From positions 122,998 through 186,997 of the forward strand of contig JAKQEQ010000192.1 in the NCBI GenBank assembly GCA_029556545.1: a stretch of DNA of 64,000 nt. Direction: 5' to 3'. The translations under genes were made by a program, and so were the position numbers. The DNA comes from Candidatus Hydrogenedentota bacterium (GTDB lineage Bacteria; Hydrogenedentota; Hydrogenedentia; Hydrogenedentales; JAGMZX01). The notes beneath the pieces were generated by a model that had not been told where the DNA came from, did not search any database, and worked only from the letters and a program-made list of their open reading frames with translations. This document shows, piece after piece, positions 12,837 to 64,000 of the stretch (positions within the stretch are counted from its first letter, which is position 1; each line of letters starts with the position of its first letter).

Positions 12837-15800
12837 TCATCCCGCGCCCGGCGCGAGTCCGTCCTCCGTGTCCGACGTCCGGTGATATAGACCGCCCGGC
12901 GTGTTGTAGAACTGAATCAGACGGAGTAATTCGCTGAGGTTGATGACCCAATCTCGCGGATTGTAGTCGGTGTCGTGCGGCTCGCAGACACGACCGCCGC
13001 TTCCTGGTGTATACCCGTCTTCCGTGCCGTCGCCACAAGAGAGCTCGCCGACATTGAAGAACTGGATGACGCGCAATAATTCCGTGAGGGAGATGTTCCA
13101 ATCGCCGTTGATGTCGGCGCTCTGTTGACCGCTTTCCGGGCGCTCATAGACGTGCAGCGAGGCTCGGGCGGAGCGCTCGCTGGCAATACCATCGCTGAGC
13201 ATACAGTCATAATCACCGGTGTCCTCGAGGAAGACGGGATCAATCACCAAGCGGACGTCGCGGGCATCTTCAATAGAGACGCCGTCCTTACGCCATTGAA
13301 ACGCCAAGGGCCCGCTACCGCCACGCGCGGCCACTTCGAATTCCGCACGCATGCCGGTATACAATGCGAGGCTGCGAGGCTGGCGCGTGATGACTATGTC
13401 ACATTCATCCAAGATTGTGACGATCCGCACAGCGAAGGCAACGTTACCGGCGGCGTCGGCAACCGAATAGGTTACTTCATGAACTCCGGGTGCTCCGCTT
13501 TGCGGCGCGCCCGACAGTTCAATCCAGGCGCTCAGGTCGCCGTCGCAGGCGTCGTACGCGGTGGCGCCCGCTTCTTCGTACACGGTGTTGCAGGATAACA
13601 CCAGGGTGGTGTCGCCCAGCAGCGTAATCTCCGGCGCCTCGGTGTCCACGACCCGAACCATGCGCGTGACATGCGCGGTGTTGCGAGCCGCGTCGCGCAC
13701 GGAGTAGGTGATCAGGTAATCGCCGGAAGCGGCGGTGTCCACAGTGCCGGTCACTTCCACAGCCGCGGACAAGTCCCCGTTGCAGATGTCCCACGCCGTC
13801 ACGCCCGGGTCTGAAAAGGCGTCGCCACATGCGATATCAATTGCACCATCACCCAGCAGCGTAACCACCGGCGCTTCGTTGTCGACGACCCAGACTATGC
13901 GTGTTGTCTGCACGCGATTACCCTCCGCGTCCTGCACGGCATAGCTAATCGGATAGTTACCGGGAACCGCGGTGTTTATGCCGCCGGTTACCTCGATAGC
14001 CGCGGACAAGTCCCCGGTACAGGCGTCCCACGCGGTCGCGCCCGGATCCGAGAAGATGCCCCCACACGCGATGTTGAGCGTTGTGTCGCCCAGAAGCGTG
14101 ATCTCCGGCGCTTCAGTATCCACGACGCGAACCGTGCGTGCGGCCTGTACGCGGTTGCCCGCTGCGTCCTGTACGGCGTAGACCACCGGATAGTCGCCGG
14201 GAACCGCGGTGTTCACGCTGCCGGTCACCTCGATGGCCCCGGACAAATCCCCGGCGCAGGCGTCCAGTGCGGTCGCTCCGGGATCGGTGAACGTGCCGCC
14301 ACACGGGACGAACAACAGATTCGCCCCCAACAGGTTGAGCACGGGCGCTTCCGTATCTGCTACGAGCACTGTCCGTGTAATTTGCGTCGCATTGCCCGCT
14401 TCATCTTCGACGCGGTAGATGCGCAGGTATGGACCCGGCAACGCCGAATTCACCAAGCCCTCGATGACAATCGCGCCGCTGATGTCGCCGTCACAAGCGT
14501 CCATGGCCTGCGCGCCCGGGTCAACGAACGCCGCGCCGCAGGAAACCACGAGCGGGTCAGGCCCGATCAACAATAAGTTGGGCGGTGACATGTCACGCAC
14601 AACCACGGTGCGAACGACTGTCGCGCTATTCCCGGCTCGGTCGCGCGCGGTATAGGTAAGTGCGTACTCGCCGGGGATCGCCGGGGACACCGTTCCCGAA
14701 ATCACCACGGTGGCGCTCACGTCGCCATCCACGGCGTCCCAAGCGCTCGCGCCCGGCTCCACATATACGCCGCCGCATTCGACGAACAACGGGTTGTCAC
14801 CGTTGACCGTGATTACCGGCGAAACGACATCGGGAGCCGTGCTCACAGTCAATACCACGACGGAGGACTCCAAGGTCACCGGACTGGCGGACGGCCCCCC
14901 GGTGACGCGCGCCTGATAGAAACCGGCATCACTCAACTGCAACGGCCCGATGCTAAGATCCGAGTCTGTGGCGCCTGGAATCTCCGTCATTGCGGCGGCG
15001 GTAGCCCCCCGATACCAACGGTACGCGGGGAGTACCTCGCCGCCGATTACCCGCACCGAGAACGTGTGGCTTTCGCCTTCCACTTTGTCCGCCCCCTCGG
15101 GATAACCCAGGAATTGAAATCCCGCCGCCGCCACCGCAAGCCGCGCCGGCTGCGCTGCGCGCATCCACGTATCATCACAGACATACAAGCTGTATAGCCC
15201 GCTATCCGAAGGCACCGCGTAAGGAAACGCCAATAGGGGCGATGTGCCAACGCCATTGGAAGCCCCTGTGGCTTCGTTCACTCGCTTCCAGTCGTAACCG
15301 ACGGGGCCGCCGTCGCCGCCCGCGATGACCGCATCGAATACCGCGGCCTCGCCCGCGGTGACGCTCAGGCCGACAGGCGGCGTGACGATTTCGAGTGGCG
15401 GTTTGACAACACCCTTCGCCAGCAGCCAGTTCTGGCGGTTGCGCCCCGCCGCGTCATAGGCCGCAAGATTGCTCGCACCCGCGCCGCTGATGTTTCCTGA
15501 GGCGCCGAGCCAATTGGGTTTTGTCGCCCCCGGCGCGTCGCCGTAAGAAGAATAACGGGAGGCGACAAAATTGGCATTCACCGTGTTGCGCAATACGCTC
15601 TTGACCGTACCGGCGATGAACCCCGGAATTTCGCCGCTGCTTACTCCCACTTCGATGAAGATTTCACCAAGCGTGATGAGAAGACCCCGGATATACTGCA
15701 CCGAGGCCGCGTCGCCGAGAGTCATGTAGGCGGCTACCAGGTCTTGCAGCGACTCGCCGAACGCCGGGTCGCTCTTGTTGATCTCGTCAATGATGTTCAC

Positions 15801-16223
15801 CGTCACAAAGAGGATTACAAGCGTCAGGTCTGGCCGGACTTTCCCCCGGTTCGCGGTGAAGGCCGCCCGTATCTCCGTGACCCGGCCTTCAGGAATCCCG
15901 CCCAGCACCAGCGACGCGGGTTCGCCCGACAAGACCGCCCCCAGCAGTTCGACATGATCGTCATCATCGATCCCGTTCTGCGAGTTATCTTCGTTCGCAA
16001 ACGCGGGTGTTGGATCGGCGGTATTTTCCTGACGGTACCGCTGAAGCCACTGCGGATAGTCCTCCCCGAGGTTGTTGTCAAGTCCCCAGAATAGATAGTC
16101 GATGTCGAACTGTATCGCGCCTGACACGGGATCCGCCACGCATTGGCCCGGAGCACTTCCGGACCATCCTGCGAGCGCGAAGCCTGGCAGTAAACACATA
16201 GCCAGCCGGTATTTCGTTGTCAT
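12837..16223 (-). CDS. large secreted protein: Ig-like domains, six DUF5011-type repeats and C-terminal ELLR module
   Basis: About 1128 residues. MTTKYRLAMCLLPGFALAG looks like a signal peptide; earlier in-frame ATGs (16316, 16415) exist, so the start is uncertain. After a unique N-terminal region (about 20-270) come two Ig-like domains, six tandem repeats of about 75 residues of the pattern PEITLLGDTTL..CGG..DPGATAWDAC.GD (DUF5011/HYR-like adhesion repeats), a third Ig-like domain, and a C-terminal duplicated module (DINGDWNISLTELLRVIQF and later INLSELLRLIQFYN). The first half of the module has a canonical EF-hand loop, DINGDWNISLTE. The architecture suggests a surface or extracellular binding protein; no catalytic domain was recognised. 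Divergent from the GH9 genes. Confidence 0.8.
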   Translation of the reverse strand: MTTKYRLAMCLLPGFALAGWSGSAPGQCVADPVSGAIQFDIDYLFWGLDNNLGEDYPQWLQRYRQENTADPTPAFANEDNSQNGIDDDDHVELLGAVLSGEPASLVLGGIPEGRVTEIRAAFTANRGKVRPDLTLVILFVTVNIIDEINKSDPAFGESLQDLVAAYMTLGDAASVQYIRGLLITLGEIFIEVGVSSGEIPGFIAGTVKSVLRNTVNANFVASRYSSYGDAPGATKPNWLGASGNISGAGASNLAAYDAAGRNRQNWLLAKGVVKPPLEIVTPPVGLSVTAGEAAVFDAVIAGGDGGPVGYDWKRVNEATGASNGVGTSPLLAFPYAVPSDSGLYSLYVCDDTWMRAAQPARLAVAAAGFQFLGYPEGADKVEGESHTFSVRVIGGEVLPAYRWYRGATAAAMTEIPGATDSDLSIGPLQLSDAGFYQARVTGGPSASPVTLESSVVVLTVSTAPDVVSPVITVNGDNPLFVECGGVYVEPGASAWDAVDGDVSATVVISGTVSPAIPGEYALTYTARDRAGNSATVVRTVVVRDMSPPNLLLIGPDPLVVSCGAAFVDPGAQAMDACDGDISGAIVIEGLVNSALPGPYLRIYRVEDEAGNATQITRTVLVADTEAPVLNLLGANLLFVPCGGTFTDPGATALDACAGDLSGAIEVTGSVNTAVPGDYPVVYAVQDAAGNRVQAARTVRVVDTEAPEITLLGDTTLNIACGGIFSDPGATAWDACTGDLSAAIEVTGGINTAVPGNYPISYAVQDAEGNRVQTTRIVWVVDNEAPVVTLLGDGAIDIACGDAFSDPGVTAWDICNGDLSAAVEVTGTVDTAASGDYLITYSVRDAARNTAHVTRMVRVVDTEAPEITLLGDTTLVLSCNTVYEEAGATAYDACDGDLSAWIELSGAPQSGAPGVHEVTYSVADAAGNVAFAVRIVTILDECDIVITRQPRSLALYTGMRAEFEVAARGGSGPLAFQWRKDGVSIEDARDVRLVIDPVFLEDTGDYDCMLSDGIASERSARASLHVYERPESGQQSADINGDWNISLTELLRVIQFFNVGELSCGDGTEDGYTPGSGGRVCEPHDTDYNPRDWVINLSELLRLIQFYNTPGGLYHRTSDTEDGLAPGAG

Positions 16224-16575
16224 TGTTCGTAATGTACCACAGGTGGAGACTACAACAACAAGAATAGTCCAGGCGGCCAGAATATGTCCGGCCTTGCCGG
16301 CGATAAGTAATTTCATACCCGATCCGGCCCGTCTAATCGTGCGCACTCCGGACAACTTCCAGATAAGAAGCCCCGCACTGACCGCAACTGTCTCAGTTCC
16401 CAGCAAGAGCACCAATCAGTGGGCCGCGGAAACGTTTTCCAAGGCCGTGCGCTCGCAGTCAACTTCGATACCCCTTGGCCATACTTCGTTGGAGCAAATG
16501 TTCCTTGTATCGCGCGTGATGGGCTGTATATGCTTGCGTTCTTCGAGATGATCGGTGAACAGGGAGCGCAGTGTC
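16224..16575. other. 352-bp divergent intergenic region
   Basis: Separates the divergently transcribed Ig-repeat protein and the GH9 genes, so it must hold promoters for both. No convincing -35/-10 pair, operator or repeat could be picked by eye. Confidence 0.5.
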
Positions 16576-45528: not shown

Positions 45529-48231
45529 ATGAAAAGACTACTACCGCGCTTGCGCCTTATCCCCGCGACGTTGATCGTGCTGATCGTCTTCGGGGCGGCC
45601 GACGTCTTCGCCGCCGAGCACGGTACGGGGTTCGTGTTGCCGCCGCCGGACGATCCGTTCTGGCAGATGAAGACGGAGCCGCGGTCGTATGCGAAGGGCG
45701 CGTTTCCGGCGGTATACGACTGGCGCGCGCTGGGCGGCGTCACCCCGGTGAAGGACCAGGGAAGCTGCGGAAGTTGCTGGGCCTTCGCGACGGTGGGGGT
45801 CTTCGAGTGCGCCATCAAGATCAAGGACGGCGTGACGGTCGACCTGTCGGAGCAGAACCTGCTCGGGTGCAACGATCTGGGCTGGGGCTGCAGCGGGGCG
45901 CTCTGGGCGCACGACTGGCACAAGGACCGGCCGAACAAATGCGGCACAGTCGGCGCCATCCTTGAGGCGGACCTGCCCTACACAGGCAACGACTCGTATT
46001 GCACCTGCGGCCACACGCCGGCGTATCTCCTTGACGACTGGGGCTGGGTAAACGGGCTCACGCCGAGCGTCGAGGATATCAAGGCCGCAATCATGACCTA
46101 CGGTCCGGTCGGCGTGTCGCTTGTCAGCGATGTACTGGGCAGCGGCACGGGCGTGGTCGGGAATTGCGGGACCTACGACGTCTGGTCGATTGACCATGCC
46201 GTCGTGCTGGTCGGCTGGGACGACACGAAGGGCGCGAACGGCGCATGGATTCTGCGGAACTCGTGGGGCGCGAGTTGGGGCAACAACGGCTATTGCTACA
46301 TCGAGTATGACTGCGGCTGGGTTGGGTTCGCCGCGAACTACGTCGTATATGGCAGCCCCACCGATGACCTGACGGTGGAGCCGCGCTATCGCGTGGACTT
46401 CACGGGCGAAGTCGGTGGCCCCTTCACACCCGCTGAGTTCACATATACCCTCGAAAACGTCGGGACCACGCCGCTTACCTGGCAGTCGAGTGCACCGCTG
46501 TGGATCGCCCTGGCGCCCGCTTCCGGAACGTTGGCCGGCGGCGCAACCCAGGCCGTGACGGCAAGCGTCCGGGTCGCGGACGCAACGCTGGGGCAACACA
46601 GCGCTAATATCGTCTTTACCCATGTCGAGACCGGCGAGGAATTCCCGCGTTCCGTCGGTTTGACGGTCAGCGCCCCGGTGATCTATCGCTTTGATTTGAG
46701 TTCCGATCCCGGCTGGGGACGCACGGGTGACTGGACGTTCGGGCGTCCGACCGGCGGCGGCAGCAACAACAAGGACCCGAATGCGGGCTATACGGGACTC
46801 AACGTATTCGGGAACAACCTTAACGGCGATTATGCGAACAGCATCCCCGAGTACTATCTCACGGCGGGACCGTTCGACTTTCAGCATTACACCAACGTCC
46901 AATTGCGCTTCATGCGACGGCTCGGCGTCGAGAGCGCCTCTTACGACCACGCCAAGGTGCAGGCGCGATCGCTGAGCGGGACATGGCAGAACGTCTGGCA
47001 GCATACCGGCGGCGATCTTGCCGACACCGCGTGGCAGGAGTGCCGATACAGTATCGCGAGCATCGCCGACCGCAGTGCGGCGGTCTATGTCCGCTGGGTC
47101 ATGGGCCCGACCGACAGCAGCGTCACGTTCCCCGGTTGGAATATCGACGATATCGAATTCTACGGCATACCGCTGAGTTCCGAGGGCGAGGGCGAAGGTG
47201 AGGGCGAACCGCCGCAGCGCTGGACGCTCACCCTGGACACCGCCGGGACCGGCTCGGGCACGGCGGCCCGTGTGCCGGATCAAGCGCTTTACGATGACGG
47301 ACAACGCGTCGATCTTGCCGTCGAGGCGGCGCCGGACAGCGTATTTGCCGGTTGGTCCGGCCCGAACGGCGACCAGGTGCTTTACGGCCACATCACAAAG
47401 ACCTACTTTATCATGATGGACAGCGATAAGCACGTCACCGCAGTGTTTAATCTGCCAGACCCCGGCGAAGGCGAAGGCGAAGGCGAAGGCGAGGGAGAGG
47501 GTGAAGGCGAAGGCGAAGGCGAAGGGGAAGGTGAAGGAGAGGGCGAAGGTGAAGGTGAAGGTGAAGGCGAGGGCGAGGGAGAAGGAGAGGGAGAAGGTGA
47601 GGGAGAGGGAGAAGGTGAGGGAGAGGGAGAAGGAGAGGGAGAGGGTGAAGGTGAAGGTGAAGGCGAGGGCGAGGGAGAAGGAGAGGGAGAAGGTGAGGGA
47701 GAGGGAGAAGGAGAGGGCGAGGGAGAGGGTGAAGGAGAGGGAGAAGGTGAGGGAGAGGGAGAAGGTGAGGGAGAGGGCGAGGGTGAAGGGGAAGGCGAGG
47801 GCGAGGGTGAGGGTGAGGGTGAGGGCGAGGGTGAGGGTGAGGGTGAGGGCGAAGGCGAGGGCGAAGGCGAGGGAGAAGGAGAGGGAGAGGGAGAAGGTGA
47901 GGGCGAACCATCTGTCGCGGTGCATTCCGCTGATCAGAACGGCGATTGCCGTATCGACCTCATGGAATTACTGCGGGTGATTCAATTCTACAATTCGGGT
48001 GGTCTCCATTGCGCCGTTGCCCGGCACGATACGGAAGACGGCTACATGCCGGGTCAGGGCGAAAACCATGCCTGCGCACCCCACGCCAGCGACTACTACG
48101 GCGGCTCCGACTGGCGCATCGACCTCACCGAATTGCTGCGGCTGATCCAGTTCTACAACGCCGGCGGCTGCCACGCCTGCCCGGGCGACGGCACTGAGGA
48201 CGGATTCTGTGTCGGGCCGCCGGGCGGTTAG
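45529..48231 (+). CDS. secreted papain-family (C1) protease with GE linker and C-terminal ELLR module
   Basis: 900 residues. Signal peptide MKRLLPRLRLIPATLIVLIV; C1 domain (about 55-280) with QGSCGSCWAF (Cys83), His223 in SIDHAVVLVGW and Asn244 in RNSWGASWG, so a complete catalytic triad. The usual long inhibitory propeptide is absent. A beta-sandwich with LWIALAPASGTLAGG (about 280-380), a jelly-roll-like domain (about 385-545), an InlB-type repeat (GWSGPNG, SDKHVTAVF), 74 uninterrupted Gly-Glu dipeptides (646-793) and a duplicated ELLR module (DQNGDCRIDLMELLRVIQFY) follow. An extracellular, possibly surface-attached protease. It ends 4 bases inside the convergent Gfo/Idh gene. Confidence 0.9.
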   Translation: MKRLLPRLRLIPATLIVLIVFGAADVFAAEHGTGFVLPPPDDPFWQMKTEPRSYAKGAFPAVYDWRALGGVTPVKDQGSCGSCWAFATVGVFECAIKIKDGVTVDLSEQNLLGCNDLGWGCSGALWAHDWHKDRPNKCGTVGAILEADLPYTGNDSYCTCGHTPAYLLDDWGWVNGLTPSVEDIKAAIMTYGPVGVSLVSDVLGSGTGVVGNCGTYDVWSIDHAVVLVGWDDTKGANGAWILRNSWGASWGNNGYCYIEYDCGWVGFAANYVVYGSPTDDLTVEPRYRVDFTGEVGGPFTPAEFTYTLENVGTTPLTWQSSAPLWIALAPASGTLAGGATQAVTASVRVADATLGQHSANIVFTHVETGEEFPRSVGLTVSAPVIYRFDLSSDPGWGRTGDWTFGRPTGGGSNNKDPNAGYTGLNVFGNNLNGDYANSIPEYYLTAGPFDFQHYTNVQLRFMRRLGVESASYDHAKVQARSLSGTWQNVWQHTGGDLADTAWQECRYSIASIADRSAAVYVRWVMGPTDSSVTFPGWNIDDIEFYGIPLSSEGEGEGEGEPPQRWTLTLDTAGTGSGTAARVPDQALYDDGQRVDLAVEAAPDSVFAGWSGPNGDQVLYGHITKTYFIMMDSDKHVTAVFNLPDPGEGEGEGEGEGEGEGEGEGEGEGEGEGEGEGEGEGEGEGEGEGEGEGEGEGEGEGEGEGEGEGEGEGEGEGEGEGEGEGEGEGEGEGEGEGEGEGEGEGEGEGEGEGEGEGEGEGEGEGEGEGEGEGEGEGEGEGEGEGEGEGEGEGEPSVAVHSADQNGDCRIDLMELLRVIQFYNSGGLHCAVARHDTEDGYMPGQGENHACAPHASDYYGGSDWRIDLTELLRLIQFYNAGGCHACPGDGTEDGFCVGPPGG
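47464..47907. repeat. 74-unit Gly-Glu (GGN GAR) hexanucleotide array
   Basis: Pure alternation of Gly and Glu codons with changing third bases. A block starting at 47548 recurs at 47644 for about 68 bases, so part of the array grew by a 96-bp (32-residue) duplication. Confidence 0.92.

Positions 48232-63232: not shown

Positions 63233-64000
<768 letters not shown>

Follow-up and report, generated by a model that had tools for sequence, protein, structure and literature searches.

Type I dockerins (PF00404), cellulosomal and non-cellulosomal, are modules of 60-70 residues made of two tandem loop-helix repeats with an EF-type Ca loop and near-identical helices, and they usually sit at the C-terminus of secreted proteins. 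The symmetry of the dockerin helices underlies a dual binding mode (PMC8063739). A cellulosome adaptor scaffoldin joins a cohesin and a dockerin in one protein. A non-cellulosomal cohesin/dockerin complex, the 'planctosome', was proposed for freshwater Planctomycetes, where it would keep peptidases, P-domain proteins, and TSP repeats on the surface (PMC6461901). PEP-CTERM/exosortase systems and the CTD of T9SS likewise use one C-terminal tag for many secreted proteins per genome.

The module described here, from a Hydrogenedentota genome, has the same tandem repeats, EF-type loop, near-identical helices, and usual C-terminal place as type I dockerins. However, it is ~95 residues long, it carries its own signature (ELLRxIQFYN, TEDGY.PG, PHxSDY..DW), and PF00404 does not detect its copies in the window, that is, in the whole 64,000-nt stretch of DNA that was analysed. 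The planctosome is the nearest published idea, and the proteins tagged here likewise include P-domain, C25, M14, and papain proteins. Its dockerins are canonical. In the present genome, by contrast, most of the tagging falls to a new module, found on ~100 proteins, and the cohesins are separate small proteins. A cohesin that ends in the module (SP-cohesin-module) has the one-cohesin architecture of an adaptor scaffoldin, but Pfam does not class its second docking domain as a dockerin. Unlike the PEP-CTERM and T9SS tags, the module also occurs at N-terminal and internal positions, and no exosortase match was found in the module's own genome. On balance, the whole is probably best explained by a putative dockerin-like docking tag specific to Hydrogenedentota.

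One module in three secreted proteins

The three copies in the window are one homologous module (Table 1). The first-pass annotation had reported the same module on three proteins, and this is borne out: the copies could be located, their alignment has 46 invariant columns, and identity to copy 1 is 55-56%. A perfect EF-hand loop is present in two copies, as had been claimed; the first loop of copy 3 reads DTSEPFGG and is not a perfect EF-hand loop. Copy 1 stops 2 residues short of the stop of its host, which has six Bact_surface_Ig-like repeats and an Ig_3 domain (Pfam). The protease domain of host protein 2 matches Peptidase_C1 (E 1e-38). Host protein 3 is cut short because the window ends where its contig ends, inside a GEGE run.

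Table 1. Features of the window (positions within it) and related loci in Hydrogenedentota genomes
Feature	Position or locus	Strand	Remarks
Host protein 1	12837..16223	-	Likely start M65, signal peptide
Module copy 1	12846..13127	-	C-terminus of Ig-repeat protein (ORF 12837-16415); loop DINGDWNISLTE
Host protein 2	45529..48231	+	Signal peptide, papain-family protease, InlB-type repeat, GE linker, module
(Gly-Glu)74 linker ahead of module copy 2	47464..47907	+	
Module copy 2	47914..48228	+	C-terminal in papain-family protease; loop DQNGDCRIDLME; model pLDDT 91.8
Host protein 3, edge ORF	63233..63998	+	Likely start, signal peptide VKYGVFVKLFLLVILLLGLSGPALA, module, GE linker; incomplete, contig ends
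Module copy 3	63308..63589	+	Immediately behind signal peptide; first loop degenerate
GE-rich linker behind module copy 3	63620..63997	+	Reaches contig end
SP-cohesin-module in dock2/cohesin operon	G000, G001, G006, G013, G019, G025, G015, G021, G020, G050		
ORFs with split module	L184:9319-11475, L185:3218-5359, L192:730-2745		
Trypsin-like protease	L251:5523-8123, L252:5730-8231, L257:5663-8182, L259:7742-10255, L258:1-1821		
Single-cohesin membrane proteins	L284:5589-6752, L281:733-2013, L282:3201-4409, L285:3030-4169		
Small short-tail dockerin proteins	L268:3982-4449, L267:3602-4126, L266:2749-3246, L273:8521-9018		And neighbours

Gly-Glu repeat DNA breaks metagenome assembly, and the contig of the window ends in such a run (63620-64000). 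Many other ORFs with the module are truncated at contig ends in Gly-Glu runs, and tagged proteins are consequently under-assembled. The Pfam model TrAA12 (PF22807) was rejected as a domain of tagged proteins. It passes its cut-off on the Gly-Glu run alone, for example at 47464-47907, which is a low-complexity artefact that may mislabel proteins with Gly-Glu linkers.

Anatomy and fold of the module

Each half of the module consists of a Ca loop, a helix with the pattern E-L-L-R-x-I-Q-F-Y/F-N, and a hairpin with T-E-D-G-Y/F-x-P-G. Anatomy was counted over 230 distinct modules. An EF loop of 12 residues forms loop 1, with D-x-[DNS]-x-[DNS]...E in 97%. Loop 2 has 13-15 residues and keeps only D...D/N...E; in contrast to a type I dockerin, it has no DxNxD, so that the loops are not canonical in both repeats. 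A further difference from type I dockerins is the hairpin that follows each helix with a probable disulfide. Cysteines C34 and C51 are both present in 226 modules and both absent in 4, and never occur singly; for C85 and C95, 180 modules have the pair, 47 lack it, and 3 have one cysteine only. Such joint retention or loss suggests two disulfides per module. Helix 1 and helix 2 of the same module are 79% identical, about as similar as the same helix is across modules (78%), while the loop positions of the two halves diverge (14%). By analogy with dockerins, this symmetry may give the module a dual binding mode as well.

An AlphaFold2 model of copy 2, made with 70 natural sequences, reached pLDDT 91.8 and pTM 0.83. 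It places helices at residues 16-27 and 71-83 and hairpin strands at 31-33/44-46 and 86-88/98-100. Every chain listed by VIA-align 2 was a dockerin, with weak Z scores of 2.4-3.9 over 55-68 residues, and the best rows of Foldseek were also dockerins at a non-significant E of about 1. A shared dockerin fold is a reasonable reading of the model, not proof, given the low Z.

Does the sequence place the module in a known family? PF00404 gave no match to the window module even at E 0.1, and it matched 8 of 70 module members at E <= 0.1 (best 1.1e-4). Comparison of the module with the phylum's own dockerins by hhalign yielded a probability of 3% and an E of 0.015 with one loop aligned, from alignments shallow in diversity. 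By these tests, the module appears not to be a member of Dockerin_1. EF-hand_6 matched 65 of the 70 members at E <= 0.1, with the window copy at 17.2 bits, below the cut-off of 25. EF-hand membership (PF13405 and relatives) is not indicated, as the curated score is missed and the model has no helix before the loop. Matches to FolE and YaaA in NCBIfam were due to chance, and a PDB profile search brought up no dockerin, its matches (E 0.11 at best) being to unrelated chains or, by chance, to EF-hands. The module is new in that neither Pfam nor NCBIfam models it and no relative of solved structure turned up by sequence; a literature search found no mention of a dockerin-like tag in Hydrogenedentota.

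The module works like a dockerin as far as its context shows, but it is not recognised as one in the dockerin sequence comparisons made. The earlier reading of it as a divergent type I dockerin therefore stands in part. Its internal duplication, its one canonical Ca loop, dockerins as the only structural neighbours listed, and the fact that a real dockerin takes its C-terminal place in a cohesin operon (below) agree with that reading. The missed Dockerin_1 matches of the window copies, the non-significant profile comparison, the non-canonical second loop, and the added hairpin and probable disulfide in each half do not.

Distribution, position, and cargo

An HMM built from the three window copies, a search that the first-pass annotation had proposed, gave 111 matches in the module's own genome (6.1 Mb), most with E 1e-35 to 1e-53, and detected the module in 28 of 40 relatives. 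The number in the own genome is far beyond chance. Across Hydrogenedentota, the module was found in 41 of 68 genomes: in every genome of families f1, f2, and f5-f11, in 2 of 6 in f3, and in 2 of 25 in f4. A scan of 84,980 species gave at least 417 confirmed stretches, the best 80 of which lie in records named Hydrogenedentota, Hydrogenedentes, Hydrogenedens, or 'uncultured bacterium'; weaker matches may exist in other phyla.

The own genome has 105 distinct tagged ORFs. In 90 of them the module ends no more than 12 residues from the end of the frame (22 of these 90 begin at the edge of an analysed stretch), and in two more it is nearly C-terminal. Eight ORFs start with the module right behind a signal peptide, one more nearly does so, and four carry it internally. 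A signal-peptide heuristic was positive for 62 of 77 tagged ORFs compared with 7 of 41 large ORFs of the window, 2 of the 7 being themselves tagged. Pfam detected a P-domain in 7 of 63 tagged proteins. Other cargo includes InlB-type repeats, Ig, PKD, beta-helix, CHRD, LRR, and FG-GAP domains, peptidases C25 and M14, and papain-type proteases.

The C-terminal place of ~90 of 105 copies is what would be expected of a sorting signal that is cleaved or processed by a secretion or attachment machine, like the T9SS CTD or PEP-CTERM. A cleaved signal is hard to reconcile, however, with a tag that can stand at either end or inside of a protein. Furthermore, no exosortase (EpsH) match was found in G000, G001, or the four genomes of family f6, no SprA match was found in the own genome in a search run without a positive control, and the module has no transmembrane or Arg-rich tail. 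A processed sorting signal is thus improbable. Of the lineage-specific sorting or docking tag that had been suggested earlier, the docking half comes close to the present reading, while sorting of the PEP-CTERM or T9SS type is disfavoured.

In three ORFs, the module is split by an insert of ~50-75 residues (Table 1). The low-copy families f10 and f11 retain a conserved secreted protease of the trypsin-like type (~840 aa) that carries the module at its C-terminus; it may be an old core client of the module.

Relation to cohesins and canonical dockerins

Where the module is abundant (19-126 copies per genome), canonical dockerins number 0-8. Dockerin-rich genomes, with ten or more canonical dockerins, are free of the module: G018 has 64 dockerins, G033 47, G039 25, G065 20, G063 15, G064 11, and G067 10. 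In these genomes the dockerin ends 14-21 residues before the stop (8 proteins). This mutual exclusion is suggestive only and confounded by descent, because all dockerin-rich genomes belong to family f4. A bolder proposal is that a phylum-specific, disulfide-braced, dockerin-like fold with its own receptor specificity has replaced canonical dockerins as the general tag for surface docking in Hydrogenedentota, which would give a docked exoproteome of ~100 tagged proteins per genome, and that SP-cohesin-module proteins act as adaptors between the old and the new code. This proposal is tentative, with somewhat less than an even chance of being right.

The first-pass annotation recognised no cohesin. 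This holds within the window, but the genome has 4 Pfam cohesins above the cut-off and 3 weaker ones, and one of its cohesins is fused to the module itself. A conserved operon (dock2) encodes two dockerin proteins, one small and one larger, the latter secreted and with TSP3-like repeats. It also holds genes for two to four secreted cohesins, of which most have a C-terminal membrane segment. Ten genomes, from families f1, f6, f9, and f11, have one operon cohesin with the module at its end (Table 1). In the module-free G065, the C-terminal domain of an operon cohesin is instead a canonical dockerin (Cohesin E 3e-6, Dockerin_1 E 4e-7). Set beside the module-tagged cohesins, this indicates that module and dockerin can fill the same slot; G065 is the only genome behind this swap, and its cohesin with the dockerin stands third in the operon, not first. 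The operon itself was rejected as the module's own locus because it is also present in the module-free G053 and G065.

Family f10 has 1-6 modules per genome and keeps the module on a cohesin fusion or a single protease. The fusion is a secreted cohesin-like protein of 265-296 aa in the five genomes examined for it; hhalign relates these fusions to the operon cohesins at 96.6%, and Pfam detects only that of G038. The retention bears on a further reading, in which modules bind one another in a Ca2+-dependent manner and so gather the tagged proteins into an extracellular matrix, with no separate receptor. The paired, near-identical helices, the large number of tagged proteins in a genome, and the failure to find a receptor that co-occurs with the module would all fit such self-association. 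What the low-copy f10 genomes keep suits a docking pair better, and self-association is the least probable of the readings considered.

Observations on cohesin numbers go against docking via cohesins. A cohesin is present in 35 of 41 genomes with the module and in 19 of 27 without it, and the Pfam cohesin number does not scale with the module number. In G009, 39 modules stand against a single Pfam cohesin, which belongs to a module-tagged protein, and canonical dockerins are absent. The cohesin co-occurrence that the first-pass annotation had suggested looking for was therefore not borne out, and the idea that each module genome has a matching cohesin was dropped. The lack of scaling and the case of G009 would suit a surface anchor that binds a wall or outer-envelope component (glycan, lipopolysaccharide, or S-layer) directly, like SLH or peptidoglycan-binding modules, and that needs no cohesin. 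Secreted proteins of unrelated function share one conserved tag, for the most part at a terminus beyond a long linker, and this would suit it too. Such an anchor is nevertheless unlikely: the module trades places with a canonical dockerin on the operon cohesin in G065, its symmetric halves and its EF loop speak for protein docking, and no similarity to known wall-binding families was found.

How might a dockerin-like docking tag work? Loop 1 probably makes docking dependent on Ca2+. Outside the cell, where conditions are oxidising and Ca is present, the near-identical pair of helices would form a symmetric face, as in dual-mode dockerins, and this face would bind one shared surface receptor. 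Docked in this way, proteases, P-domain proteins, Ig/PKD adhesins, and beta-helix proteins would stay on the cell or close to it, with flexible Gly-Glu linkers giving reach. The usual cohesins need not be the receptor, given G009. That a dockerin fills the module's slot on an operon cohesin in G065 makes membrane-anchored cohesins the first receptor candidates. One guess is that the receptor is such a cohesin, for example a neighbour of the SP-cohesin-module gene. If the receptor is a cohesin, the SP-cohesin-module protein could be an adaptor between canonical dockerins and the receptor of the module.

Most secreted Ig, protease, and beta-helix proteins of these uncultured bacteria have no assigned location, and a shared docking tag would indicate which of them work together at the surface or near it. 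Such a tag would also be a reliable marker for their annotation. It would further offer a new candidate docking pair for protein assembly, possibly orthogonal to cellulosomal cohesin-dockerin pairs, and the module/dockerin swap in the operon offers a direct handle on finding the partner.

Single-cohesin proteins of ~350-460 aa with a C-terminal membrane segment recur in most families of the phylum (Table 1) and are candidate receptors for either kind of tag. The small secreted dockerin proteins beside the cohesin operon share a conserved short tail, about RYLF.LT..APP.PA.
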